Shown: positions 1-15,395 of the stretch, one piece after another
Layout of the letters: each line of letters opens with the position of its first letter
Numbering within the stretch: the first letter of the stretch is position 1
Origin: Limimaricola cinnabarinus
GTDB lineage: Bacteria; Pseudomonadota; Alphaproteobacteria; Rhodobacterales; Rhodobacteraceae
Assembly: GCF_002723615.1 (NCBI RefSeq)
Contig: NZ_KZ304951.1
Coordinates: 269,344-333,343 of the forward strand
Direction of reading: 5' to 3'
Length of the DNA: 64,000 bases
Program-made: the position numbers and the translations under genes
Notes under the pieces: generated by a model
The model's input: only the letters and a program-made list of their open reading frames with translations
Databases searched by the model: none
What the model was told of the DNA's origin: nothing

Positions 1-276
1 GAAGTTGCGGTAGCCGCGCCGGTAAAGGTCTAGGATCAGCGCCGCCATCAGCACCGTCTTGCCGCTGCCCGTGGCCATGTGGAACAGCAGGTGCGGCGCC
101 TTGGGGCGTGCCTTGTATTTGTCCATGTAGATCAGCCAGCGCTCTAATGCCGTTCGCTGGTAGGGCCTTAGAGAGATATTGCTCGCCAGATTGTCTGTGA
201 TTGCATCCGGGATAGCAGACTCAAGATCTGCAAACTCAATAGCGGCGTCGATGCGTTCGGTAAGGGTCTGACTCAT
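1..276 (-). CDS. Type III restriction enzyme, Res (helicase/nuclease) subunit, 5' end only
   Basis: Only the first 92 codons lie in the window; the gene runs off its left edge. A DEAD/DEAH-type ATPase start is visible: a Q-motif-like RPYQ at residues 37-40 and a Walker A motif MATGSGKT at 67-74. Res subunits of type III systems use ATP for translocation and cut DNA when complexed with Mod. The ATG at 276-274 overlaps the TGA of the upstream mod gene in an ATGA, so the two are translationally coupled and surely belong to one system. The nuclease domain is outside the window, so the subunit's integrity cannot be judged. Confidence 0.8.
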   Translation of the reverse strand, partial: MSQTLTERIDAAIEFADLESAIPDAITDNLASNISLRPYQRTALERWLIYMDKYKARPKAPHLLFHMATGSGKTVLMAALILDLYRRGYRNF

Positions 277-2165
277 GCGTCCAGCCCATAGAAAGAGCGT
301 GTAGCTCGGGCGTCTTCGTCGGAGATGTCAAAGTCCGCATCGCCAAGGGAGCCGAGATTGACATAAAGGTGGTTGGCATCAAGGCAGTCCATCAACACAC
401 GCTTAGCCTCGTCCAGCGGAAGTGCTGCGAAGTCATCGGTATCGAAGGCGCTCAGGTCCACGTCATAGCGTAGATAGCCGGTGGCCTGCATGTCGGCATG
501 GATGGTTTGCAGCGCGGCCATATCCGGGGCTGCTTCGATCCGGTCGGCAAAGGCAGAGTTTGAAGCCGCGAGTTCGGCATAAACAAACGATCCGCCGCCC
601 TGCCACTCGATGGCTTTGGAAATGCCGCCCTGTTCGCCTTCGATGACTTTCTTAAGGCGTTCTGCGGTCAACTTGCGAACATAGTCCATTTGCTCAATAG
701 CGAGCCATCGACGCTGCATCTTTGCCGCGACAGCGGCGAAAGTCCCGGAACCAACAAAGAAGTCAAGCACAAGGTCGCCCGGCGATGTAGTAACCTCAAT
801 AATCCGCTGCATGAGTTTTTCAGGCTTGGGTGTCGGAAATGTGTCCCCTAACCCAAATGCCATTGCCTCACGCTTCGCATCTTGATTGTCGCCAGCAAAA
901 CTTCGAAGCCAAAGCGTCTCAGGTACAATACCACTCTTTACTTCAGACAAGAACGACTTCTTCCTGGGCTTTTCCATCTCGTGATTTGGCCCCCACCACA
1001 ACCGCCCATCTTCAATGTTTTTCATTGTAGTTTCACGTTCGCTAGCCCACACTCTCGATCTTTCCGGCCAGACTTCTTTGCCAGTGCGAGGATGGGTGAT
1101 CGGATAGAAAAGATTGGGGCGCTCATCGGCGGTCTTGTTGCATGTGTAGACCACAGATTGCCAAGGTCCGCGCGGGTCGTTGTCAGGATTCTTGTAGTTC
1201 GAGAGTTGCCCCTCATCTCGCTCGACAGGGTTAAACCCCACTGACTGGATGTCTTTCACGAATACTAAGAGGTGATCGTGGCTTTGACTAAAACCAGTCG
1301 CATCATTTTGCTTTGCATATTTCTTCTGCCAGATAACATTCCCTATGAAGTTATCCCGGCCAAACAGCTCATCCATCAACACTTTAGCATAGTGTGCTTC
1401 GCCATCGTCCAAGTTGACGAATACTGTGCCATCGCGACTTAGCAACTCCTTCGCCACTTCCAGCCGGTTTCGCATGAAGGTCAGCCACGCTGAATGGTTG
1501 AAGCGATCATTATATCGGAAGCCGTCATTGCCGGTGTTATAGGGTGGGTCGATATAGATCAGCTTCACCTCACCCGAATACCGCTTCTTCAGCGAGTGCA
1601 GCGCCAGCAGGTTGTTGCCCTTGATAAGCAGGTTGTCATCCTGAGACACGTCCCCTACGGGCTTGGCCTTGCCCTCCGCCACGGCCTCGGCATCCCAGCG
1701 TTGCCACCCTGTCAGCACCTTGGGTTCGAACAGCCGCGTGATGTCGTCCGGGGCCAGCGTCGTGTTCCAGAACACTTCGTTGCGGCCCCGGTCCTCTTTC
1801 GTCATGCCGCCTTCCAGCACGCAATCCTTGTAGGGCCACGCCAGCACCACGTCACGCGACTGGCTCAGGTAGTCGCCGCGCCCGTCCGTCAGGCCGATGC
1901 GGTTCTTGAAGGCGGTGTAGCTGTCGGGAAGGAACGCCTTGTTGGACACGAAATCCTGAAACTTCACCTTGTCGAAGACCAGCGCGTCCGCCACCTCGGT
2001 GAAGAAATGCGCCTTGATCGTGTCGGACTGCATCAGCAGTTCCAGCAACCGTGCGTCCATGTTCAGCGCCGCCTCGATCACAGCATTCTTGAGGATCGCC
2101 CCGTCCGAGATGAACGCCTGTTCGGCTTGGAGAAGCTCCGTGAGGTCATCGAGAAGGTTCTGCAT
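273..2165 (-). CDS. Type III restriction-modification DNA adenine methyltransferase (Mod)
   Basis: This 630-residue site-specific DNA methyltransferase is the modification and recognition subunit of a type III R-M system. The catalytic motif DPPY is at residues 206-209 inside LIYIDPPYNTGND, and the AdoMet motif DFFVGSG is at 468-474. That order (catalytic before AdoMet motif) is the beta-class arrangement of Mod proteins. The 250 residues between them should hold the target-recognition domain. The first ~180 residues are a long helical extension of the size usual in this family. The stop overlaps the start of the Res gene (ATGA). GC content here is clearly lower than in genes beyond 4.2 kb, suggesting an acquired module. 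The recognition sequence cannot be read from the protein. Confidence 0.9.
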   Translation of the reverse strand: MQNLLDDLTELLQAEQAFISDGAILKNAVIEAALNMDARLLELLMQSDTIKAHFFTEVADALVFDKVKFQDFVSNKAFLPDSYTAFKNRIGLTDGRGDYLSQSRDVVLAWPYKDCVLEGGMTKEDRGRNEVFWNTTLAPDDITRLFEPKVLTGWQRWDAEAVAEGKAKPVGDVSQDDNLLIKGNNLLALHSLKKRYSGEVKLIYIDPPYNTGNDGFRYNDRFNHSAWLTFMRNRLEVAKELLSRDGTVFVNLDDGEAHYAKVLMDELFGRDNFIGNVIWQKKYAKQNDATGFSQSHDHLLVFVKDIQSVGFNPVERDEGQLSNYKNPDNDPRGPWQSVVYTCNKTADERPNLFYPITHPRTGKEVWPERSRVWASERETTMKNIEDGRLWWGPNHEMEKPRKKSFLSEVKSGIVPETLWLRSFAGDNQDAKREAMAFGLGDTFPTPKPEKLMQRIIEVTTSPGDLVLDFFVGSGTFAAVAAKMQRRWLAIEQMDYVRKLTAERLKKVIEGEQGGISKAIEWQGGGSFVYAELAASNSAFADRIEAAPDMAALQTIHADMQATGYLRYDVDLSAFDTDDFAALPLDEAKRVLMDCLDANHLYVNLGSLGDADFDISDEDARATRSFYGLDA

Positions 2166-2289
2166 GGATGGTTGCCCCCGTGTTCGTTTTTTCGCACTTT
2201 GTGCCTGACGGGACAGGGAAAATCCAGACGCGACGAACCACGAGCCTTATTTGCCCCAGTAATGGGAACATTGGGTTTACAGGGGCAGG

Positions 2290-3669
2290 TCAGCGCAGGG
2301 CATAGGACCGGGTGACTTTAACTGGGGGAACCTGCCCTAGCCTTGCCTTGAAGGTGTCCTTCATCACCTGCACCAGTTCCCCTTCCAGATGGGCCTGCAC
2401 AATGAAGGCGTCATGTATGGGCAGGATCGCATGGCCCTGCCTGACAAAGTGCAGCATGATCTCTTCCGCCAAATCGCTTTCCAGCCGTTGCAGCGTCATG
2501 CCCTTGTCGGTGCCCAGCATGGCGGACACCATCGGAAAGGCGTCCAGTACCTTGTTACGGAAGTCCTCTGCCGTCATTCCCCATCGAGTGCTGTTGAAGT
2601 CGCGGGGTTCTTCTGTCGAGCCCGACTTGGAGTTGAGAAGGGCGGCAAGCGTAGCCTTGGCATGGTCCCGCAGCTCCTTGGGTGCATTCGCCCCCACGAT
2701 GGGAGAATAAGGGTCTTCCGGTATAGACTGGCCCGCCTCAGCTAACAGCACCGCCGGGTTGAAGCCCCGGAAGTCTGCTTCGATGGTGTGCTGTCCGTCT
2801 ATAGTGATCTTGGCCCGTGCATTGCTTTTGACGTTCTGCCACCACCCGCCGTAGAACCTGCCACCGTGGTCGAAGTTGCCCCGATTGAATACACGGTGCA
2901 GGCGAACCTTGCGGCCTTGGTATTCGGATTTTCGGTCATGGATAGTAAGGGGGCGGGTCGTTGCTATGTCGATCGTATCCAACTTCGCGTTGATTTCGTC
3001 CAGTCTCGCCCGAAGGTCGTCAATCTCGGGTGTGTCGTCATAGCCGCACAGACGGTCATTATGATCTTTCAATCGAACGGCTTCCCTCCCCCGGTACACT
3101 TTGAAATCGTCAAAGGTCCAGTCTTTGACTTCCAGTTCCTTTGCGCCTGCCTCCGTCAAGGCAAAGCGGCTTGTCTGACTGTCGCCCGGAAGATTATAAC
3201 CTTTTTTGACCAATTCGATATGGCCACATTTGACAAGCCAGTCTTGCACGGTCCTGAACCGGTCAGCGGTCATATACATGGGCCGGTATCGCCTTTCCCG
3301 GTCCAATGCCCCCTTGCTACGGTACATACCTATTGTAGTGGGCCATTTGTTGCACTTGGCCCGCATCAGGTTCGCAAGAATTGCACTACCACAGTCCCAA
3401 AACTTCTGTTGCGTGTCGGTGCTTGGTTTGCGCACGGAAAAAGTCGCCATCCACGCTGCGCATACGTCATCCATCAGTAGGTCTATGAGGTTTTGCGCAT
3501 CCGGGTTTGATGCAGACAGATACGGTTCAAACGCCCATGAGTTGTCCCCAATTTGGTTGGGCAACTTTGCGGCCAATGCCTGGGCTTTCAAAGCAAGTGC
3601 AGACTTAGGTTCATCAGTCATCGTAAAATTTTGACACAGTTTTTCGTGGCCCGATACATATAATAGCAC
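2290..3669 (-). CDS. Uncharacterised protein: winged-helix-like N-terminus plus family-A-polymerase-like palm
   Basis: I do not recognise a named gene. The 459-residue frame starts at GTG 3669, preceded by GGGGGAAG about 8 nt upstream; an internal ATG at residue 17 is the alternative. Residues about 105-180 look like a winged helix. Residues 200-235 are charged and possibly coiled-coil. Residues 256-312 (RVFNRGNFDHGGRFYGGWWQ, then EADFRGFNPAVLLAEAG) resemble polymerase motif A, with Asp299 as the candidate catalytic acid. RDHAKATLAALL (334-345) sits where the O-helix R...K would be. LPIHDAFIV (416-424) resembles motif C, with His419-Asp420. No exonuclease or thumb of normal size is present. 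A plasmid or phage-type replication protein or defence-associated polymerase is possible. The polymerase reading is by eye only. Confidence 0.55.
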   Translation of the reverse strand: MLLYVSGHEKLCQNFTMTDEPKSALALKAQALAAKLPNQIGDNSWAFEPYLSASNPDAQNLIDLLMDDVCAAWMATFSVRKPSTDTQQKFWDCGSAILANLMRAKCNKWPTTIGMYRSKGALDRERRYRPMYMTADRFRTVQDWLVKCGHIELVKKGYNLPGDSQTSRFALTEAGAKELEVKDWTFDDFKVYRGREAVRLKDHNDRLCGYDDTPEIDDLRARLDEINAKLDTIDIATTRPLTIHDRKSEYQGRKVRLHRVFNRGNFDHGGRFYGGWWQNVKSNARAKITIDGQHTIEADFRGFNPAVLLAEAGQSIPEDPYSPIVGANAPKELRDHAKATLAALLNSKSGSTEEPRDFNSTRWGMTAEDFRNKVLDAFPMVSAMLGTDKGMTLQRLESDLAEEIMLHFVRQGHAILPIHDAFIVQAHLEGELVQVMKDTFKARLGQVPPVKVTRSYALR

Positions 3670-3730
3670 GCGTTAACTTCCCCCATACCCCGCCCGCGCG
3701 GCAGGGGTACGCCCCGCCTTGCAACCCGGC

Positions 3731-3868
3731 AACACTATAGGACAGAAGAAGCGCCAAGTGGGTCGGCATCCGGGCCACGCATAAAGGCAAAGACGCGCTG
3801 AGGCGCGACCCGCCCCCCACTATAGGACGAATGGATAACCAAGGCGGCATCCGTCCCACCTATAGGCG
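3731..3868. repeat. Three CACTATAGGAC-like repeats upstream of the polymerase-like gene
   Basis: Copies centre on TATAGG at 3736-3741, 3821-3826 and 3861-3866. The first two share CACTATAGGAC exactly; the third reads CACCTATAGGC. Spacing is 85 and 40 bp. They lie directly behind the start of the polymerase-like gene. They could be binding sites (iterons) for its product, or minus-strand -10 elements (TATAGT). The likeness to the 3' half of T7-class phage promoters is noted but unproven. Confidence 0.45.
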
Positions 3869-4101
3869 GATAGAGAGCCACCCGATACGACACCCGCCGG
3901 TTGACAGAAACAGTACTTGCGATCAATAAGTGGGGCGTCATGTGAGACACCAAAGCAACCTTCGCGCTTGGATGTCCAGTTAAGTCAACGACTTAGAAAA
4001 ATGGTGGATTGTCCCTGTCTCTCCGCCACTACCCCCCTGAATATCCTCACGGCTTTGGAGATGCTCGGGTGTGGTGCGCCTGCTTGGACACTCCGATAGA
4101 T

Positions 4102-4136
4102 GCCTGAAAAGCGTCATGCCATGACCCCTTTCAGGC
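4102..4136 (-). terminator. Hairpin downstream of the MDR oxidoreductase gene
   Basis: GCCTGAAA and TTTCAGGC form an 8-bp outer stem, with an inner TCATG/CATGA stem. It lies about 40 nt past the stop of the minus-strand oxidoreductase gene. There is no long T-tract, so termination strength is uncertain. Confidence 0.5.
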
Positions 4137-4174
4137 CTCCGGATGGCCTGGCCCCGATCCCATCCTCGTGATGG

Positions 4175-5245
4175 TCAGCCTGCGACCGCCACCCCGATCT
4201 TGCCCATGTGCGACTTTTCCAGGAATGCCGTCTGCGCCGCGTGCAAGTCGCGCAATGGATAGGTTTCGGCGATCACGGGCTTGATCTCGCCCGCCTCAAT
4301 GTAGCTGATCAGATCAGTGAACACGCGCGGGTCCTGCCGAGTGCTGCCAATCAGTGTCAGATCTTTGAGGTAGAGCGTCCGCAGATCAAGCTCGACAATC
4401 GGCCCTGCAATAGCGCCCGATGTCACGTAGCGACCGCGTGGGACCAACGTATCGAGCAGTTCGGGCCAGCGCGGCCCACCCACCAGGTCGAGCACCACGT
4501 CGAAGGTTTCATCCGGATAAGCGTCGTCGCGGTCCATCACCGCATCGGCGCCGAGCGTTTTCAGCGCTTCCATCTTGGCCGGGCTGGTCGAAGCCGTGAC
4601 ATGCGCGCCTCGCCGCTTGGCGAGTTGCACCGCCGCCGAGCCGACGCCGCCAGATGCCCCGGTGATCAGCACATGCTCGGCGCCCAGTCCGGCGCGCTGG
4701 ATCATGCCTTCGGCAGTGGAGAACGCACAAGGAAATGACGCAAGTTCGATGTCCGTGAGCGGGCTGTCGATCCGCAGCGCGTGTTCGTCGTCCATGGTGG
4801 CATATTCGGCAAAGCCGCCATCGCGCTCCGAGCCGAAGGTGACAAGCGCATCCGGTCCTGCGCCGGTTGGACGATGCATAGGCCGTACCAGCACGCGCTG
4901 GCCAATCCGCGCAGCCTCCACACCGTCACCAACCGCAACGATCTCACCGCAGCAGTCCGCGCCCTGGATGCGCGGAAAGCTGAGCGCACCGGACCATGCG
5001 CCGTCGGCATCGGAGGCGCCCGCATAGCCCTCCGCGGCGGCCGAACCGGTGTCGCCCCGCACCGCTTTCGAATACCAGCCCGTTCGGGTGTTGACGTCGG
5101 TGTTGTTCACCGCCGACGCGCCCACACGGATCAGTACCTCGCCAGCTTCCGGTCGCGGAACCGGCACGTCCTCGCGCCATTCGAGCTTGTCCAACCCGCC
5201 ATGGCCCGTGAGGATGACGGCTTTCATCGTTTCAGGCAGTGTCAC
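4175..5245 (-). CDS. Zinc-independent MDR-family alcohol dehydrogenase / quinone oxidoreductase
   Basis: This is a medium-chain dehydrogenase/reductase of about 356 residues. The N-terminal GroES-like fold begins MKAVILTGHGGLDKLEW, and the NAD(P)-binding Rossmann fold carries ITGASGGVGSAAVQLAKRRG. Such proteins are usually NADPH-dependent quinone or enone reductases in the cytosol. Structural-zinc cysteines are not evident. The open frame reaches a TTG at 5260 inside the divergent operator. GGAG at 5255-5258 is spaced best for the GTG at 5245, while homologues typically begin at the ATG at 5227, so the start is uncertain by up to 11 codons. A TetR gene is divergent across a large inverted repeat, making this its probable target. 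The substrate is unknown. Confidence 0.85.
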   Translation of the reverse strand: MTLPETMKAVILTGHGGLDKLEWREDVPVPRPEAGEVLIRVGASAVNNTDVNTRTGWYSKAVRGDTGSAAAEGYAGASDADGAWSGALSFPRIQGADCCGEIVAVGDGVEAARIGQRVLVRPMHRPTGAGPDALVTFGSERDGGFAEYATMDDEHALRIDSPLTDIELASFPCAFSTAEGMIQRAGLGAEHVLITGASGGVGSAAVQLAKRRGAHVTASTSPAKMEALKTLGADAVMDRDDAYPDETFDVVLDLVGGPRWPELLDTLVPRGRYVTSGAIAGPIVELDLRTLYLKDLTLIGSTRQDPRVFTDLISYIEAGEIKPVIAETYPLRDLHAAQTAFLEKSHMGKIGVAVAG

Positions 5246-7823: not shown

Positions 7824-8102
7824 TCAGTCACGCGCCTTCTCCAGCAGCGCGACCATCTCGCGGAACTTGGTGCGCTGCTCGTTCGGATCGCCCGAGAGGA
7901 TCGCCGCTTCGAGGCAGTGATTGGTGTGATCCTCGATCAGGAGCCGCTCGACCGCCTTCAGCGCCGAGCGCACGGCCGCGGTCTGGGCCAGCATGTCGAC
8001 GCAGTAGCGGTCGTCCTCGACCATGCGCGAGATCCCCCGGATCTGCCCCTCGAGCCGCGCCAGCCGCTTCTGGATCGCCGCCTTGTTCTGCTTTTCCTGC
8101 AT
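7824..8102 (-). CDS. csoR: CsoR/RcnR-type metal-responsive repressor, probably copper-sensing
   Basis: This 92-residue all-helical repressor starts at ATG 8102, with GGAGG eight nt upstream; the longer open frame is not needed. The three Cu(I) ligands of CsoR fall at the expected spacing: Cys34, His59 and Cys63 (W-X-Y pattern Cys-His-Cys). In the family, Cu(I) binding releases DNA. It diverges from the DUF305 gene, which is followed by convergent copper-related genes. The ATACCGGGTGAGGGTAT element upstream is a candidate operator. RcnR-type Ni/Co sensing is less likely because the N-terminal His ligand is absent. Confidence 0.88.
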   Translation of the reverse strand: MQEKQNKAAIQKRLARLEGQIRGISRMVEDDRYCVDMLAQTAAVRSALKAVERLLIEDHTNHCLEAAILSGDPNEQRTKFREMVALLEKARD

Positions 8103-8152
8103 GTCATTCGCCTCCGACTTCGGAACCCTACGCTTGAACGGTGGTTCCCGCC

Positions 8153-8169
8153 ATACCGGGTGAGGGTAT
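8153..8169. promoter_or_regulatory. Candidate CsoR operator
   Basis: ATACCGGGTGAGGGTAT is an imperfect inverted repeat (ATACC and GGTAT arms with G-rich centre). It lies between csoR and the divergent DUF305 gene. Known CsoR operators are GC-rich with TACC/GGTA-type ends. The assignment rests on pattern and position only. Confidence 0.45.
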
Positions 8170-8310
8170 TTCGCCCCCTGCCCCACGGGGCCGTGATCGG
8201 GCAGCGCGGCATGCGAGACCGTTTCCGGCACCGCCACCTGCCGGCCCCAGGCCGCCCCTGAATGGCCCGGAGGGTCGACCGCCGGCCCTGATACGAAAAG
8301 GAGAGTATCC

Positions 8311-9207
8311 ATGTCCTACTGGCGCTTCGCCGCGATGATCGCGACCTCGACGGTGGTGATGTTCGGGCTGATGTACATCAACACCTATGCCTTCGAGCAC
8401 GTCTTCTTCAGCGAGACGCGAACCTACATGGCGCTCTTGATGGGTGCCGCGATGGCGGTGATCATGCTCAGCTTCATGCTGTCGATGTATGCCAGCAAGG
8501 CGATCAACATCGCGATCTACGCGGGCGCCGTCGTGGTGTTCGGCCTGACGCTGTGGCTCATTCGCAGCCAGGAGACGGTGGACGACACCAGCTACATGGC
8601 GGCGATGATCCCGCACCATTCGATCGCCATCATGACCTCCGAGCGCGCGCAGATCGACGACCCGCGCGTGCGCAAGCTCGCCGACGAGATCATCGCCGCG
8701 CAGCGCAAGGAGATCGGCGAGATGCGCCACCTGATCGCCGATATCGAGGAAAACGGCATCGCCACCGATCCGGCTCTGGGCGAATCCGAAGCGCCAGCCG
8801 AGACGGGCACCATCGAGGAGGCGCTGGGCTCGGCGCAGCTGGCCGGGCTCGACGTGGCGGGGCTGAAACCCGGGGAGATCGAGACCGCTCTGGGAAACAA
8901 CGCGACCTGCGAGTTTCGCCGCACCAATGAAGGCGAGCCGGTGCTGGCCATGGCCGGCGAGAGCGGTGCGATCAAGCTGTCGGGCGTGCTGATCCCGCTC
9001 GCTGCCGGTTCGCCTGTCGCCGCAGGGGCGCTGGATGACGGCGCGCGGTTCGCAGCCGAAGGCGTCGACATCTCCGTCATGCCCGACCCCGGCGCCGACT
9101 GGACCGACACAGACGACAGCCTGCGCCGCGCCGAGGCCGAGATGGTGTTTCACCTCGAAGAAGGCCTGCGCGTCGGCTATCGCGGCTTTCTCGACTGCGC
9201 CGCCTGA
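8311..9207 (+). CDS. DUF305 membrane protein with extra C-terminal domain
   Basis: The 298-residue protein starts after AAAAGGAGAG. Three hydrophobic helices span about residues 5-26, 38-58 and 63-84. The DUF305 domain follows, with MIPHHSIAIMTSERAQ at about 99-114 (His102, His103), then helices to about 150. The remaining ~140 residues (ATCEFRRTNEGEPVLAMAGE through FLDCAA) form a separate domain I do not recognise, with two cysteines. DUF305 proteins are often found beside copper-export genes. This one diverges from csoR, so copper-controlled expression is likely. A stand-alone DUF305 protein is usually shorter, so this is a fusion or a longer subfamily. Confidence 0.8.
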   Translation: MSYWRFAAMIATSTVVMFGLMYINTYAFEHVFFSETRTYMALLMGAAMAVIMLSFMLSMYASKAINIAIYAGAVVVFGLTLWLIRSQETVDDTSYMAAMIPHHSIAIMTSERAQIDDPRVRKLADEIIAAQRKEIGEMRHLIADIEENGIATDPALGESEAPAETGTIEEALGSAQLAGLDVAGLKPGEIETALGNNATCEFRRTNEGEPVLAMAGESGAIKLSGVLIPLAAGSPVAAGALDDGARFAAEGVDISVMPDPGADWTDTDDSLRRAEAEMVFHLEEGLRVGYRGFLDCAA

Positions 9208-9334
9208 GCTCGGCGCGCCCCTGCCGCCCCGCGTTCTGCCCCTGCCGGCAGGCCGCCCGCGCGGGGCAGCATGGGCCTCGCGAAGGGCAGGATCGACGCC
9301 GAGGACCGCGCTTTCCGCCGGACACTGCCGGGCC

Positions 9335-9360
9335 ACGGCCGCCCCCTGAAGGGCGGCCGT
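9335..9360. terminator. Hairpin between convergent DUF305 and multicopper oxidase genes
   Basis: ACGGCCGCCC and GGGCGGCCGT form a perfect 10-bp stem with a 6-nt loop. It sits between the DUF305 stop and the oxidase stop. Without a T-run on either side it may act as a bidirectional or Rho-assisted end. Confidence 0.55.
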
Positions 9361-9367
9361 TACACGC

Positions 9368-10792
9368 TCACCCTGCGGTGACCGCGAACTCGGTCATCAT
9401 CCCCGAGGCCAGATGCGGCATCTGGTGGCAATGCAGCATCCAGCGCGCCGCCTCGCCCGCGTCGAGCGCGACCGTGACGGAGGCCATCGGCGGGACGTAG
9501 ACCGTGTCGCGCACCGCGCCCGAAAAGCGCTGGCCAGCCGCCTCCACCACCTGGAACACATGCCCGTGCAGGTGCATCGGGTGGCCCATGGGTGACATGT
9601 TGTGGAAGGTCAGCTCGACCCTTTCGCCCGAGATGGCCGGGACCGGCTGGTGCTCGCTCCAGAGCTTGCCATCAATGGTCCAGACATAGGGCTGCATCTG
9701 CCCGCCCAGCATCACCATCTGCCGCCGATCCACGGCTCGCTCCGGCAACGGCTCGACGGCGCAGAGCGACCGCTCCTGCGCCATGTCGAGATCGAAAGCC
9801 GGCGCCGCGGTGGGGGCGATGCCGGGTATCTTGTCGATCACCGCACCAAAGCTCGCCAACACGATCCCGGTGCGCTCGCGCGCGCCCTCGCGCAGCGCGA
9901 GGATCGGGAAGGCTCCGCCCGAGGGCAGATCGACCTCGATGTCGAGCCGCTGCGCCATCGCCGCACCGAAGCGACGCCCGGCAACCGGCTGCACGGCATG
10001 GCCGTCGACCGCCACCAGCCGCGCCTCGACCGCGCCGGTCTCGATCCAGAAACTCGTCGCGGCGGCGGCGTTGATCACCCGCAGGAGGATCCGCCCGCCC
10101 GGTTCGACCTGCACCACCTCGGGGTCCGACAGCGTGCGGTCGTTCGCGAGGTAGGCGTCGAAGTCGTAATCATTGAGATCGGCAGTCATCGCCATGCCAC
10201 CGTGGTCCATGCCGCCATGGCCCATGCCGCCATGATCCATCCCTTGCATGGCCGTGCCGGAGACGATCCGTTCCATCACCTCCTCGGGCGAGGTGAAGGA
10301 GAAGTCCTGCAGGAACAGCACCACCTCCTGCCGGTCGGCGGCGAGATCCTCGGCGCGCCGCACGATCAGCGGCGCGGCAAGCATGCCGAGTTCCTGAGTC
10401 GGAATGTGGCTATGCATCCAATGCGTGCCGGCAAGCGGTGCGAAGTCGTAGCCGCGGCTCTCGCCCGGTGCGAGCGGCGGCATCGGCAGGTGCGGAATGC
10501 CGTCCTGCGCGTTGGGCGGGATCTGCCCGTGCCAGTGGATCAGCGTCTCGACATCGAGCTGGTTTTCGAGCCGGACCGCAAAGCGCTGGCCGGGATCGAG
10601 GGTCAGGCCGGGACGGCCATCGGGGCCGAGAAGCCCCATGACGGTGGCGGCGCGCCCGTCGATGTCGAGCGTGCGGCTCGCGGCGCGCAGGGCAAGCGGC
10701 GCGTTCTGGGCGCGCACGGCCCCGGGCATGGAAAGGGTCGCGGCCATGGCCGCGCTGGCGGCAAGAAAGCCGCGGCGTGAAATCTGGGTCAT
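9368..10792 (-). CDS. Tat-exported multicopper oxidase with Met/His-rich insert
   Basis: This 474-residue three-cupredoxin-domain oxidase is probably a periplasmic Cu(I) oxidase of the CopA/CueO type. The start is the ATG at 10792, with AAGGA upstream. A twin-arginine leader RRGFLAASAAMAATLS exports the folded protein. Copper ligands: HWHG at 86-89, HSH at 127-129, HPMHLHG from 404, and HCHQMPHLASGMM from 454. The insert MDHGGMGHGGMDHGGMAM (about 185-202) is a methionine/histidine copper-binding segment. It is the last gene of a minus-strand run behind cytochromes and a small Cys protein. Substrate may be Cu(I) or phenols; Cu(I) is favoured by the insert and the nearby csoR. Confidence 0.9.
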   Translation of the reverse strand: MTQISRRGFLAASAAMAATLSMPGAVRAQNAPLALRAASRTLDIDGRAATVMGLLGPDGRPGLTLDPGQRFAVRLENQLDVETLIHWHGQIPPNAQDGIPHLPMPPLAPGESRGYDFAPLAGTHWMHSHIPTQELGMLAAPLIVRRAEDLAADRQEVVLFLQDFSFTSPEEVMERIVSGTAMQGMDHGGMGHGGMDHGGMAMTADLNDYDFDAYLANDRTLSDPEVVQVEPGGRILLRVINAAAATSFWIETGAVEARLVAVDGHAVQPVAGRRFGAAMAQRLDIEVDLPSGGAFPILALREGARERTGIVLASFGAVIDKIPGIAPTAAPAFDLDMAQERSLCAVEPLPERAVDRRQMVMLGGQMQPYVWTIDGKLWSEHQPVPAISGERVELTFHNMSPMGHPMHLHGHVFQVVEAAGQRFSGAVRDTVYVPPMASVTVALDAGEAARWMLHCHQMPHLASGMMTEFAVTAG

Positions 10793-10862
10793 CTGTCTGT
10801 CATCCTTGCGGCGTGGCGCGCCGCGCTTGAAAGGTCCCGGCAGGCCGGGGGGAACAAGGGCG

Positions 10863-11192
10863 TCAGACGAAGTTGGGTGGCCTCTGGGGCGGCGCAGGCG
10901 CGCAGCCGCCAAGCAGGAGACAGGCGGTGATCGACGGGCTGTCGGCGACGCGCGCCAGCTTGCGGTAGCCCTCGGGGCCACCGAAGACCGGGCGTTGCGC
11001 CAGACACATCAGGGCACAGGCCGCGTCGGTGGAGGTGTCGTGGGGAATCATTGGTTCGGCATGTTCGGCGTGGTGCGCCGTGACCGGCGTCCGGCCTGTC
11101 ATGTCACCGTCGAGGCCCCAGCCCGCAAGCAGCAGCAGCACCACCCCGATCAGGGCAGGCAAGGCAGAGAGAGGGTGGATTCGAGGGCTCAT
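10863..11192 (-). CDS. Small membrane-anchored His/Cys protein, copy 2
   Basis: The 109-residue hypothetical protein has a hydrophobic segment at about residues 7-24, then a periplasmic-looking tail containing HAEHA, a cluster CALMC, a later CLLLGGC pair, and a Pro-rich end PPQRPPNFV. I chose the ATG at 11192; the longer frame upstream lacks support. The gene resembles the one at 13464-13790 in having a membrane segment, HAEHA and a proline/arginine end. Both lie in the same run of cytochrome and multicopper-oxidase genes. A metal-binding or periplasmic delivery role is possible but not shown. Confidence 0.6.
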   Translation of the reverse strand: MSPRIHPLSALPALIGVVLLLLAGWGLDGDMTGRTPVTAHHAEHAEPMIPHDTSTDAACALMCLAQRPVFGGPEGYRKLARVADSPSITACLLLGGCAPAPPQRPPNFV

Positions 11193-11292
11193 GTCGCCGC
11201 CACAGATGGCATGTCCCGCGCCCGGCGCAAGTGGCTGCGCGCAGGACCTCGATCGCATCGGCGCCAAACCGCGCCCCGATCGTGGCGCGACC

Positions 11293-11752
11293 TCAGTCGA
11301 TGCCGTTCTCGCGTTGCAGCGCGCGAACATAGGCCACGATGTTGGTGACATCGGCATCCGTCAGCCCGGTGACCGGGGGCATGTCGCCGAAGTCCCAGTG
11401 ATGCGACCGCACGCCGTTCCGCACGGCAGCGAGAAAGGCGTAATCGCCGTGATGGCCCGGCTCGTAGGTCTTGTGCACCAGCGGCGGCGCCACGCCGTTC
11501 TTTCCGGCCGCGTTCGCCCCGTGACAATCGGCGCAGACCGCCTCGAAGGCGCGCTTGCCCATCTGCGCCTGCTCGTCGAGCCCGGTGGGCAGCGCCACCT
11601 GCACGATCGCCGCGCCCTGCGGGATCTCGCTGGTGTCGGGTGGGGTCATGGAGTGGCCCGCCATGCCGCCTTCATCGGGCGTCGAGGCGACCCAGAGCAG
11701 GCCGCCCGCAAGAAGAAGGCCAGTGACCCCCGAGAATGATCGTCTTGTTCAT
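11293..11752 (-). CDS. Monohaem c-type cytochrome with frameshifted N-terminal anchor
   Basis: The intact frame from ATG 11664 (123 residues) carries the haem motif CADCH and a distal Met in DMPPVTGL, so the haem domain is complete. In the next frame, an ATG at 11752 with GGAAAG upstream begins MNKTIILG. Removing one base from the G5 run (C5 on the plus strand, 11727-11731) gives MNKTIILGVTGLLLAGGLLW and then STPDEGG joined in frame to MAGHSM. That is a perfect uncleaved anchor or signal. As written, the export signal is out of frame. This is either a real phase change, a sequencing error in a homopolymer, or programmed slippage. It would serve as an electron carrier beside the diheme cytochrome. 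Confidence 0.8.
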
Positions 11753-11820
11753 ATGTCCGTCTTTCCAATGGATTGACCCCGGCGCAGCAGGAGCGGCGCC
11801 GGGACGTTCGTCAGAAGCGA

Positions 11821-12744
11821 TCAGCGGAGCTGCGCCAGCGCGTCGATTTCGGAGAGTTCCGTTTCGGGATCGAGCAGATAGGCCGCGATGGCCCGCCTGT
11901 CGGCCTCGTCGAGAAAGCTCGTCCCCTGCTCCACCACCTCGGTCATGGAGCCACCGAAGACGTCGCCCGCGGGCGTGATCCCGGTCTCCAGCGCATAGGC
12001 CAGCGCATTCGCGGTCCAGCCGGCGTCCTTCAGGGCGGCGGCGCGGATCGATGGCGCGACGGACCCGCCCGGCAGATCGTCATTGCCACCGAAGCTCGTG
12101 GCGTCGAGCCCGCCCAGCAATCCGCGCCCGGTATGGCAGGCGCCGCAATGCGCCGCCCCCTCCACCAGCTCGCGCCCCCTGTTCCATTCCTTCGAGCGGC
12201 CGAGCACAGGCGCGCTCTCGGCCTCGAGGAGCGCCGTCGCGCGCCAGAGCTTCAGGCCGGAACGCATGCTGAACGGAAAGCGCATGTCGGTCTCGCCGCG
12301 CGTCTCGGCCACCGGCGGCACCGTCGCCAGCGCCGCCCAGAGATCGGCGATGTCCTGGTCCGAGAACCCGGCATAGAACTCGAAGGGAAAGGCCGGGTAA
12401 TAGGGTTCGCCATCGGGCGAAATGCCTTCCCGCAATGCCCGGCCGAGGTCCTCCGGGGTCCAGCTGCCGATACCATGCTCGAAATCGGGTGTGATGTTCG
12501 GCGGCACGAAGCTGCCGAATGGCGTGTCTAGCGCCGCGCCGCCCGCCAGCGCCGGGCCTTCGGCCGCCGTGTCGGTGTGGCAGGCCACGCAGCCCGCGGC
12601 CCGCGCCAGATAGGCCCCGCGCCGGGCATCGCCATCGAGCGTGATCCTCGCACCCTCCTTGCCGATCGGCCAGGCGCGCAGCCCGGCATAGCCGCCTCCG
12701 GCCAGGGCGGCCACCAGCAGGACGCCTCTGAGCAAACCACGCAT
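11821..12744 (-). CDS. Diheme c-type cytochrome
   Basis: This 307-residue exported protein has a hydrophobic signal or anchor at residues 4-20 and two haem-binding motifs, CVACH near residue 52 and CGACH near 198. Conserved Gly/Pro-rich segments (NITPDFEHGIGSW, PFEFYAGFSDQD) match the c-type cytochrome subunits that pass electrons from periplasmic dehydrogenases to oxidases. No dehydrogenase large subunit is next to it. Instead it is flanked by a monohaem cytochrome and a cytochrome c' in one minus-strand run, only 2 bp from the latter's stop. The electron donor is unknown. Confidence 0.87.
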   Translation of the reverse strand: MRGLLRGVLLVAALAGGGYAGLRAWPIGKEGARITLDGDARRGAYLARAAGCVACHTDTAAEGPALAGGAALDTPFGSFVPPNITPDFEHGIGSWTPEDLGRALREGISPDGEPYYPAFPFEFYAGFSDQDIADLWAALATVPPVAETRGETDMRFPFSMRSGLKLWRATALLEAESAPVLGRSKEWNRGRELVEGAAHCGACHTGRGLLGGLDATSFGGNDDLPGGSVAPSIRAAALKDAGWTANALAYALETGITPAGDVFGGSMTEVVEQGTSFLDEADRRAIAAYLLDPETELSEIDALAQLR

Positions 12745-12746
12745 GC

Positions 12747-13430
12747 TCAGCTCCCCGCCCGGTAGCGGCCATGGCAGGCCGCGCAGGTTTCGCCGATCCG
12801 CCGGAAGACCTGTGGCGCGGCGAGCGTCGCGTAGCCGGGCGCGGTGGCACTCCCGTCCGCCGCGGATGTGGAGGCCATCCCCGCCTGCTCCGCTCTTCGC
12901 CGCGGCTCGACGCCGAGGAGCTGCGCCACCGAGAACCCGGCGCCGGGGCCGGACCGGGCCGGAGCGTCACCCGGCATCGTCATGCCCTCGTGCCCCTCCA
13001 TGGAACCGCCCGTGGAACCGCCCGTCGCCATTCCGGCATGAGGATCTGGCGCCGCAAGCCCGTTCGGGGCGGCTTTCACGAGGCCTTCGGCATGGCGGCG
13101 CAACTCTTCGGCCAGGGCGTCGAACGTCTCACGCTCCTGCCAGATCGCCTCTTTTGCATAGGAGACCCCGCCCGCGCTGCCCTCCGGGAAAAGCCCGGTC
13201 ATCTCGCTTCCGGCATGCGCCGCGATCGCGCGACCGGCCTCGGCCACGCGGGCCGCGTCATAGGGCATCTCGCCCCGCATCATCGGGGTCACGTCGCGCA
13301 GGGCGTCGCGCATCGCGACCATCCCCTCCATGCGTTCGCGCACCACGCCCGTCGCGCCACTATGCGCGACCACGGTCCCCGCGGCGATCCAGATCGCCAG
13401 CGTGGCCACCGCCATCTTCTTGCTTGTCAT
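12747..13430 (-). CDS. Cytochrome c' (class II) with Met/His-rich insertion
   Basis: The 227-residue protein has a cleavable signal (to about VVAHSG). A four-helix region begins VVRERMEGMVAMRDALRDV, and the C-terminal haem motif is CAACHGRYR, the class II cytochrome c' pattern. Typical cytochrome c' is about 130-150 residues. The excess is a low-complexity insertion between helices, about residues 128-205, including HAGMATGGSTGGSMEGHEG and MTMPG, which look like soft-metal ligands. Cytochromes c' bind NO or handle nitrosative stress. In this copper-rich setting the insertion may bind Cu(I). It is encoded first among the cytochromes of the run. Confidence 0.85.
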   Translation of the reverse strand: MTSKKMAVATLAIWIAAGTVVAHSGATGVVRERMEGMVAMRDALRDVTPMMRGEMPYDAARVAEAGRAIAAHAGSEMTGLFPEGSAGGVSYAKEAIWQERETFDALAEELRRHAEGLVKAAPNGLAAPDPHAGMATGGSTGGSMEGHEGMTMPGDAPARSGPGAGFSVAQLLGVEPRRRAEQAGMASTSAADGSATAPGYATLAAPQVFRRIGETCAACHGRYRAGS

Positions 13431-13463
13431 ACTGCCCTCGTCGACTGAGTCCGATTGTTCAGA

Positions 13464-13790
13464 TCAGACCCTTCGACGGGGGGGCGGCAGGGCGATGTCA
13501 GGCTGCCGGGACGCCGGTTCCGCCCCCCCGGCGCTGATGGTCATCCGGTCCGACAGCCGCAGCGGCGGCCTGAGAAACGCGCCCTCATCCACCGGAACGA
13601 TGATGCACCGCACGCTGGGATGGCAGGCCGCGGACGGGGGCACCGGGCCGGAGACCACGGAAGGGACGACGGATGCGTGTTCCGCATGGCCGTCCGCCGC
13701 ATGCGCATGCTCCGGGCCGGCAACGTCCCACAGGCTTCCGAGAAGCAGAAGCCAGCACAGGGACAACCCGACGATTTGCCTCAGCAGCAT
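13464..13790 (-). CDS. Small membrane-anchored His/Cys protein, copy 1
   Basis: The 108-residue protein begins at ATG 13790 (MLLRQIVGLSLCWLLLLGSL), preceded by GGAAGG. A TTG nine codons upstream is possible. A hydrophobic N-terminus is followed by EHAHAADGHAEHAS, a CHPSVRC pair, and a PPPRRRV end. It shares the HAEHA element, a cysteine pair and the proline/arginine tail with the gene at 10863-11192. It precedes the cytochrome c' gene with a 33-bp gap and probably opens the minus-strand copper/cytochrome operon. Function is unknown. Confidence 0.6.
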   Translation of the reverse strand: MLLRQIVGLSLCWLLLLGSLWDVAGPEHAHAADGHAEHASVVPSVVSGPVPPSAACHPSVRCIIVPVDEGAFLRPPLRLSDRMTISAGGAEPASRQPDIALPPPRRRV

Positions 13791-13997
13791 GGGAGACGAT
13801 GCCTTCCGCACATCCAACTTGTGGCCACCCTATGGCACCCGCCCCCCGGGGGGAAGCTGGCCCCCTGCCAAACGCGAGAAAGGGCGGAAGCGTGCCGAAC
13901 CGACACGGTCGGCCAGACCCGAAGGCCGCTCGCCCTCCCCGAAAACAGGAACCGGACCAATGGTATCCTGCGTTCCCTGCCCAAAGGAGGACCAGCC

Positions 13998-15395
13998 ATG
14001 ACCCTGCGCTTCGAACAGATCCTGGCCGACGGTGTCGCCGAATGCTCCTACCTACTGGGCGACGACGCCGCGCATGTCTGCGCCATCGTCGATCCGCGCC
14101 CCGACGTCGAGATCTATCTCGCGGCGGCGCGGCGCTTCGGCCTCGCCATCACCCATGTCTTCGAGACCCACATCCACGCCGATTTCATGAGCGGCGCGCG
14201 CGAGCTGGTCGACCGGCTCGGCGGTCAGGCCAAACTCTGCGTCAGCACCGAGGGCGGCGCCGAATACGGCTTCGAGCACGCGCCGGTCCGCGATGGCGAT
14301 GAGTTCGTCTTCGGCGGGCTGCGGATGAAGGCGCGCTTCACCCCCGGCCACACGCCCGAGCACATGTCCTACTTCCTCCATGACGGCGACACCGAGACGC
14401 CCTGGGGCGTGCTTTCGGGCGATGCCTTCTTCGTCGACAGCGTCGGCCGCCCCGACCTGATGGGCGACGACCGGACCGAGGAGCTCACCGAAAAGCTGTT
14501 CCACACCGTGCGCGACGTGTTCATGGCGCTGCCCGACGACGTGATCATCTATCCCTGCCACGGCGCGGGATCGGCCTGCGGGCCGGATATCGGCGACCGC
14601 ATGTCGAGCACGATCGGCTATGAGCGGCGCTTCAACGACTACGCCAGGATCGAGAGCCTCGAGGAGTTCAAGAAGGTGATGCAGGCGGATGCCCCGCCGG
14701 TGCCGACGCATTATCCGCGGCTGAAGAAGGTGAACGCCAAGGGCCCCGAGGTGCTGCGCAACCTGCCGCGCGTGCCGCCGCTGACGGTCGAGCAGTTTGC
14801 CGAAGCTGCCGAGAACGGCGCGCAGATCCTCGACGTGCGCGACATGATGGGCTTCGGCGCGGGCCATGTGAAGGGCGCGCTCAACATCGGCGCGCGGCCC
14901 GAACTGTCGGTCTGGGCCGGCTGGCTGCTCGACCCGGAACGCCCGATCCACCTCGTGCTGAACGAGGATGCCGAGCTGCCCGAGGTGGTCAGGCTGCTGT
15001 GGCGCACCGGCTTCGACCGGTTCGGCGGCTATCTCGCCGGCGGCATGAGCGCGTGGCGCGAGGCGGGGCGGGAGTTCGCGCAGATCCCGCAGATCTCGGT
15101 GCATGAGCTGAAGGAGGCGCGCGGCATCACCCCGCTCGACGTGCGCAAGCCCGAGGAATGGGAGGGCGGCCACGTGCCGGGCGCGACGCATGCCTTCCTC
15201 GGCGAGCTGCGCGAGAAGCTGCACGATCTTGACCGCACAAGGACCTACGCCACCTATTGCGCCAGCGGCTTTCGCGCCAGCATCGCGTCGAGCCTGCTTG
15301 CTGCCAATGGCTTCGAGACCATCCGCAACGTGCCGGGCAGCTGGAAGGCATGGAGCGCCGCCGGCTACCCGGTCGAAACCCCCGAGAAGACATGA
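13998..15395 (+). CDS. MBL-fold / double-rhodanese protein, persulfide dioxygenase-like
   Basis: The 465-residue start at 13998 follows a strong AAAGGAGG. Residues 1-240 form a metallo-beta-lactamase fold with the ETHE1-type iron site pattern (THIHADF, His58-x-His60-x-Asp62; later FTPGHTPEH and YPCHGAGSACG). Two rhodanese domains follow. The first (about 265-355) has no catalytic Cys. The second carries the active loop CASGFRAS with Cys421. Such fusions oxidise glutathione or protein persulfide to sulfite, or transfer the sulfane sulfur. The gene heads a plus-strand pair with the DUF442-like phosphatase 8 bp downstream, next to the SqrR-like repressor. Confidence 0.9.
   Translation: MTLRFEQILADGVAECSYLLGDDAAHVCAIVDPRPDVEIYLAAARRFGLAITHVFETHIHADFMSGARELVDRLGGQAKLCVSTEGGAEYGFEHAPVRDGDEFVFGGLRMKARFTPGHTPEHMSYFLHDGDTETPWGVLSGDAFFVDSVGRPDLMGDDRTEELTEKLFHTVRDVFMALPDDVIIYPCHGAGSACGPDIGDRMSSTIGYERRFNDYARIESLEEFKKVMQADAPPVPTHYPRLKKVNAKGPEVLRNLPRVPPLTVEQFAEAAENGAQILDVRDMMGFGAGHVKGALNIGARPELSVWAGWLLDPERPIHLVLNEDAELPEVVRLLWRTGFDRFGGYLAGGMSAWREAGREFAQIPQISVHELKEARGITPLDVRKPEEWEGGHVPGATHAFLGELREKLHDLDRTRTYATYCASGFRASIASSLLAANGFETIRNVPGSWKAWSAAGYPVETPEKT

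Follow-up and report, generated by a model that had tools for sequence, protein, structure and literature searches.

A probable TV-Pol-type polymerase gene in a 9.3-kb tRNA-Ser(CGA) element carrying type III restriction-modification genes in Limimaricola cinnabarinus

We analyzed a stretch of 64,000 nucleotides of Limimaricola cinnabarinus DNA (the window). A gene at 2290-3669, on the minus strand, probably encodes a minimal family-A polymerase of the TV-Pol type and, with a tyrosine integrase gene, would be one of the two recurrent genes of a 9.3-kb element that sits in tRNA-Ser(CGA) and carries a type III restriction-modification (R-M) system. Computed here were the fold prediction, the invariant catalytic residues, the purifying selection, the element limits, an empty site, and a recurrent tRNA-integrase-polymerase layout with varying cargo. 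The family, though little studied, is not new and fits TV-Pol (Iyer, 2008). What is new is the setting: the element is integrated in tRNA-Ser(CGA), and a 17-bp repeat of the tRNA 3' end marks its limits; the kind of enzyme was already known. A preliminary description had called the protein uncharacterised, which needs correcting, since TV-Pol (2008) and divPolA2 (2024) describe such proteins.

The open reading frame proposed earlier exists, and its strand, which had not been given, is the minus strand. It encodes 459 aa counted from a GTG. The codon of residue 17 (window 3621) is ATG both in the window and in seven close relatives, and the true start is therefore probably this ATG rather than the GTG, which gives 443 aa. 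All the motifs quoted in the preliminary description were found at their residue numbers: EADFRGFNPAVLLAEAG (D299), RDHAKATLAALL (R334...K338), LPIHDAFIV (H419-D420), and GGRFYGGWWQ (269-278). The gene is intact and under purifying selection (pN/pS of 0.20-0.34 in 28 pairs from eight close genes). The single protein sequence (P0001, a TV-Pol/divPolA2-like protein) had no match in Pfam (E ≤ 10), NCBIfam, PADLOC (E ≤ 1), or the PDB sequences, and matched phrog_4756, of unknown function, with an E value of 5.2e-40. The A1 profile gave weak matches against the PDB, the best of which was a MarR-type repressor (E 0.079).

A model was built from an alignment of 39 proteins, the window protein and 38 homologues with 19-82% identity; duplicates, the fragments L053, L054, and L056, ORFs shorter than 370 aa, and three phage rows were omitted. 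Its mean pLDDT was 85.3 and its pTM 0.72. The model predicts a winged-helix-like N-terminal half (residues 42-212; window 3034-3546, minus strand) and a family-A polymerase core (residues 250-454; 2308-2922, minus strand) formed by a hairpin with an invariant Arg, a palm, and reduced fingers. Strands 257-262 and 265-274 form the hairpin, and one long helix (214-231) precedes it. A Foldseek comparison of the model with the PDB, the check proposed for the PolA-like palm, gave 57 matches with E values of 0.001 or less, the lowest being 9.9e-6, and the best 50 of the 57 were all family-A DNA polymerases, with an alignment span of 222-275 columns in 40 of these 50. The palm was thus predicted as claimed, despite TM-scores that were low (0.22-0.32 by query length) and that count against the main reading. 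Among viral models, the best E value was 5e-23, with Aeromonas and Rheinheimera phage proteins among the top matches; the replication protein of the virophage Zamilon, which we take to be a TV-Pol, was also found (E 9.9e-4). The N-terminal domain modeled alone (35 sequences) reached a pLDDT of 88.6 and matched mostly MarR/PadR winged helices. The winged helix that had been proposed for this half is weakly supported by this resemblance, the E values being never better than 0.058.

Ten residues were invariant in the 39 aligned sequences: N227, G270, R285, E297, D299, Y321, R334, K338, H419, and D420. They include the motif-A Asp299 (codon at 2773-2775), the fingers RxxxK motif (Arg334-Lys338, 2656-2670), and the motif-C His419-Asp420 (2410-2415), all on the minus strand. 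Conservation of Asp299 and Asp420, on which the earlier proposal had been staked, thus extends to all 39 rows. In an earlier alignment of 45 rows that included three fragments, D299 was kept in 45, R334 in 44, and K338, H419, and D420 in 43 each. The conservation of the quoted motifs is far beyond chance. R271 was present in 38/39 rows and D319 in 35/39.

A comparison of the profile with 12 host Pol I domains gave an E value of 0.0025, but a probability of 12%. In this alignment, GRFY..WWQN pairs with GR....NLQN and HDAF with HDEL, D299 with the motif-A Asp, and R334 and K338 with the O-helix R and K. At the Pol I E710 position (residue 304, same register), 25 of the 39 sequences have H and 10 have N; at the F762 position (residue 342), 36 have N, A, or L. 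The position that we take to be that of Pol I Y766 is N in 31/39. Judged by the alignment, both ribonucleotide-excluding positions of Pol I (E710 and F762) are replaced in the family. Sugar selection is therefore likely to differ from that of the SCCmec polymerase, which keeps both. Bacterial DNA polymerase I shares motifs 1, A, B (R and K), and C in the same order; the protein studied here is far smaller, with no exonuclease recognized and with the Y766, F762, and E710 positions replaced.

The available text of the study that defined TV-Pol (Iyer, 2008; PMC2579912) describes a minimal family-A/T7-like core that occurs in many Rhodobacterales, beside integrase or resolvase genes and near R-M operons, and proposes a prim-pol function and replicative mobile elements. 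Our protein is alike in its core, its neighbors, and its host group. The two catalytic Asp of an RRM-like palm correspond to D299 and D420, with family-A palm matches; the β-hairpin with an absolutely conserved Arg is present, with R285 or R271 as candidates for the named Arg; the RxxxK of the fingers is R334 and K338; D319 is a candidate equivalent of the conserved fingers Asp; and no nuclease domain was matched in Pfam up to E 10. The setting is likewise that of a mobile element or virus. As to the two-helix antiparallel thumb described for TV-Pol, our model shows one long helix ahead of the hairpin. The N-terminal domain, with helices plus a β wing, is predicted to be winged-helix-like and not all-helical, the latter being given for the integrase-linked subset of TV-Pols only. 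Further differences are that the element ends are defined here in a tRNA gene, that the R-M genes lie between integrase and polymerase, and that no D5 helicase was recognized among the element ORFs searched, whereas many TV-Pols are described as paired with one (Iyer, 2008; PMC2579912). In a published TV-Pol phage, Microcystis phage LMM01, the best ORF against the core profile was MAP_030, with a weak E value of 0.041 and without motif C.

Two other systems were compared from the accessible parts of their descriptions. CCPol-MP of SCCmec and the PolA-SSB primases (PMC7581432, PMC10061031) are likewise family-A polymerases of mobile elements that often carry R-M genes, and priming has been shown for them; CCPol requires MP for priming. 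CCPol keeps the E710 and F762 equivalents (PMC7581432), whereas the family studied here has mostly H/N and N/A/L, and no MP/SSB partner was recognized among the element ORFs searched. Pipolins (PMC7385651) combine their own polymerase (piPolB) with a recombinase in a tRNA gene and have very variable content. Our element has the tRNA att sites and the recombinase, but its polymerase is family A-like by fold, not a primer-independent family-B enzyme.

The element contains genes for an integrase, an HTH protein, a type III Res, a Mod, and the polymerase. At its integrase end lies tRNA-Ser(CGA) (L062 13973-14062), followed by the tyrosine integrase (L062 14129-15694; PF00589), the small HTH protein (L062 16622-16864; PF01381), and the 876-aa Res (L062 16990-19620, its 5' end being window 1-276, minus strand; PF04851 E 4.3e-31, PADLOC REase_III E 4.8e-146). 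An ORF at 15804-16619 of L062 was rejected as a gene; it had no Pfam match and no match in 12 related loci. Mod (273-2165, minus strand; PF12564 E 1.2e-23, PF01555 E 7.3e-46, PADLOC MTase_III E 1.4e-179) lies downstream of the polymerase gene in the same direction and is followed by Res. Both subunits of the type III system noted in the preliminary description are thus present beside the gene. The element ORFs searched, which included part of the small ones, yielded neither a recognizable D5-type replicative helicase nor an SSB partner, and this counts against the main reading. Elsewhere in the window, 7824-12744 holds a metal-handling cluster with a PF02583 metal-sensitive repressor, a DUF305 protein, a multicopper oxidase, and two cytochrome c proteins.

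The outer limit of the element is attR (4012-4028, plus strand), a repeat of the last 17 bases of tRNA-Ser(CGA), 342 bp beyond the polymerase GTG. The 17-bp tRNA 3' end at L062 14046-14062 (G000:C1:264045-264061) is attL, and the start-to-start distance between attL and attR is 9310 bp. When the two flanks of the element are joined, they can be aligned with 211 bp of G005, a genome of the same genus (79%), whose tRNA-Ser site is an empty site for the element. Other same-genus genomes have a different sequence after tRNA-Ser(CGA). Genomes G007 and G001 carry att-like copies about 10.1 kb and about 39.6 kb away at this site (loci L131 and L132-L133), which suggests other islands, and because of these copies the site is probably an integration hot spot.

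The neighbors of homologues were surveyed, as had been proposed, in 60 loci: 28 genome regions (8 from best-scoring matches and 20 chosen for long contigs) and 32 loci of a species collection (from 69 pattern matches), many of which end at contig ends; the 60 are not all independent. An integrase-like ORF was found within 10 kb in 39 loci and a tRNA in 36. The integrase profile was built from 11 proteins, 10 of them from surveyed loci; of the remaining 50 loci, 29 scored. In 23 loci, 21 of which also had the integrase, the polymerase gene was bracketed by a direct repeat that reproduces 14 bp or more of the tRNA 3' end. In controls, the tRNA 5' end gave no case and inverted copies gave three, all at tRNA-Gln; these loci (L143, L149, and L161) have an inverted copy of 17-32 bp of the tRNA-Gln 3' end on the far side of the polymerase gene. 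Counting against the main reading, no integrase was found in 21 of the 60 loci and no bracketing repeat in 37, some being cut by contig ends. Bracketed loci spanned 5.8 to 14 kb (22 bracketed in a scan of 47 loci). The mobile-element polymerase suggested in the preliminary description is supported by the element boundaries, the empty site, and these relatives.

The order polymerase, Mod, Res, integrase was repeated in L026, L028, L030, L031, and L032, all adjoined by tRNA-Cys(GCA) or tRNA-Ser(CGA); the L026 integrase and the L030 Res each match in two pieces. Identity to relatives was 79-93% for Res, 44-82% for the polymerase, and 53-80% for the integrase, and because these values differ the element is, judged by sequence identity, a mosaic. 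Cargo was known from searched neighbors, and a minority of the bracketed elements were searched for cargo individually. Among the pooled neighbor ORFs of 23 loci, the family met most often was Phage_integrase (12/114). The cargo included type I R-M genes in L136 (MTase_I and specificity), in L138 a type II methylase together with an HNH match that fell below the curated cut-off, and an HEC-04/PtuA-like ATPase plus a resolvase in L139; L033 and L140 (NACHT under cut-off) had weak defence-like matches, and an efflux pump neighbors L048. The one ORF searched in each of L038 and L046 gave nothing recognizable. In L138, a gene resembling the type III Mod of the window stands at 13221-14933, beyond the att copy (10762) that limits the bracketed element. 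A defence polymerase, the other possibility raised in the preliminary description, is not favored, since integrase and polymerase recur with differing cargo.

It is unlikely, though the best placed of the alternatives, that the polymerase serves the restriction system as a functional component or regulator, for example by fill-in or repair after cleavage or by winged-helix autoregulation, and that its gene is not a replication gene. In the window and in 10 distinct relatives (duplicates removed), Mod comes after the polymerase gene and is read the same way, an arrangement compatible with coupling of the polymerase to R-M and thus a point against the main reading; the polymerase gene also precedes HsdM-HsdS-HsdR in the type I systems beside L040 and L042. 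The adjacency was found in 7/7 relatives above 70% identity and in 3/5 at 44-49%. That Mod is always adjacent was ruled out by L082 and L083 (47-48% identity), both without Mod. A block upstream of the polymerase gene (GTATGGGGGAAGT, 3676-3688, minus strand) points the same way as the adjacency, since among 22 genes tested its core TA[TC]GGGGGAA occurred upstream only of type III-linked ones, the window gene and nine relatives; it was absent from the other 12, including L060, which is type III-linked but IS-truncated. Against a restriction role, relatives lie in elements with unlike cargo (the L139 ATPase; the L138 methylase/HNH), and no cargo was recognized in the two searched ORFs of L135 or in the single ORF tried in L034. 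The gene is last, not first, in L136 (and in L141 by ORF layout). Six phage regions have no annotated R-M gene alongside, most genes there being merely "hypothetical," and PADLOC has no model for the polymerase.

Between attR and the polymerase gene lies a non-coding region (3670-4011), a candidate origin or promoter. In blocks of 40 nt it is 57-95% identical to L025, L027, L028, and L031, four of the seven relatives. The 80 bp beside attR are 95% identical in L028 and 57-60% in the three other relatives compared. L028 shares the tRNA of the window element and has the closest integrase, and for these reasons the pattern is as expected of integrase arm sites, to judge from the alignment. Further in from attR, identity was 62-90% in the four relatives compared. 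The region differs over most of its length in L026 and L029, a difference that counts against the main reading, and is gapped in L032. Rfam had no match within window 1-5000. The region contains two plus-strand repeat copies (CACTATAGGAC..., 3733-3758 and 3818-3843) that are 73% identical over 26 nt, each with an exact copy of CACTATAGGA (3733-3742 and 3818-3827); no others occur in the window at up to one mismatch.

These two exact copies, against 0.31 expected, bear on a second alternative, which we regard as quite improbable: that the protein works in the manner of T7 as a single-subunit RNA polymerase, transcribing the element or priming it with RNA, the CACTATAGG repeats being its promoters. 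The copies resemble the core of T7 promoters; two copies were also reached in 6/100 shuffles, and close relatives keep the repeat only in part. Mitochondrial RNA polymerase was among the weak A1-profile matches against the PDB (E 0.24, over the C-terminal part), and both sugar-gate positions are replaced (H/N in 35/39 at residue 304; N/A/L in 36/39 at residue 342). The available text on divPolA2 (PMC11348598) also allows an RNA polymerase. The best 50 of the 57 fold matches, however, are all DNA polymerases, and the winged helix is the sole additional domain that was recognized. That the gene is a domesticated or decaying passenger without current function is very improbable: some homologues are broken (L019/L046, L045, L090, and others) and a Thioclava copy beside IS21 lacks the N-terminal part, but the window copy is intact and its close relatives show the low pN/pS given above with all catalytic residues kept. 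In that Thioclava plasmid (L060 7848-15579), IS21 lies just upstream of the shortened polymerase gene, Mod is annotated as a single gene, and the Res match covers two annotated genes.

The best reading, by analogy with pipolins, remains that the polymerase would replicate small tRNA-anchored elements, perhaps without a primer. We infer excision, DNA binding, polymerase and priming activity, and replication. The integrase would excise the element as a circle, and the winged-helix N-terminal domain would bind the repeat-bearing DNA that separates attR from the polymerase gene. There the palm domain would start and/or extend DNA synthesis, possibly without a primer, and this synthesis would let excised copies persist until transfer or re-integration. 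The R-M genes may stabilize the element and protect the host.

A broader proposal, which we hold tentatively and rate somewhat short of even, is that widespread self-copying elements of 6-14 kb are anchored in tRNA genes, mainly in alphaproteobacteria. They would combine a tyrosine integrase with a primer-independent family-A polymerase whose winged helix recognizes the origin of the element itself. Such elements would be the family-A equivalent of pipolins and would shuttle defence systems that are interchangeable. The divPolA2 of ICP1, barbaviruses, and other such phages would derive from these polymerases or from a shared source, and ribonucleotides may be accepted because the Pol I sugar gate is lost. 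An orphan "hypothetical protein" becomes a testable replication gene of precisely bounded 9-kb elements with an empty-site control, and two groups described separately, TV-Pol (2008) and phage divPolA2 (2024), are joined. If active, the enzyme would represent a second polymerase family for self-synthesizing bacterial elements, would be a tractable minimal member of family A in which the sugar gate is altered, and would explain the movement of restriction systems among marine Rhodobacteraceae.

Homologues were present in 15/101 genomes and in 53/394 genomes of the family, a set that overlaps the 101 (own genome counted in both). Three of 72,556 plasmid records had one. A contig classed as viral in IMG/VR (L057) carries the element with the same score as the Oceaniovalibus element L028, and is possibly an integrative element called a virus. 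Among phages, 210 of 50,697 records had a homologue, 115 of them Rheinheimera and 77 Vibrio, ICP1 included. Two phages with a homologue also encode their own DNA polymerase, so the family also serves another role, which counts against the main reading.

The homologues in phages are apparently the divPolA2 described in 2024, for which the accessible text (PMC11348598) gives repair or RNA polymerase as possible functions and variable phage neighborhoods. Six phage proteins, barbavirus and ICP1 included, matched the bacterial profile with E values of 1e-62 to 5e-43 in a search of those six proteins, and kept D299, R334, K338, H419, and D420. The Barba1A protein, probably the one for which that paper describes a palm with an unrelated N-terminal domain, matched at E 5e-43. 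No link of divPolA2 to TV-Pol or to tRNA-borne elements was found in the available portions of the literature searched. In ICP1_2006_C (L166 3038-4699), the homologue is a 553-aa protein annotated as hypothetical; N227, G270, and E297 are changed in it, whereas D, R, K, H, and D of the catalytic site are kept.
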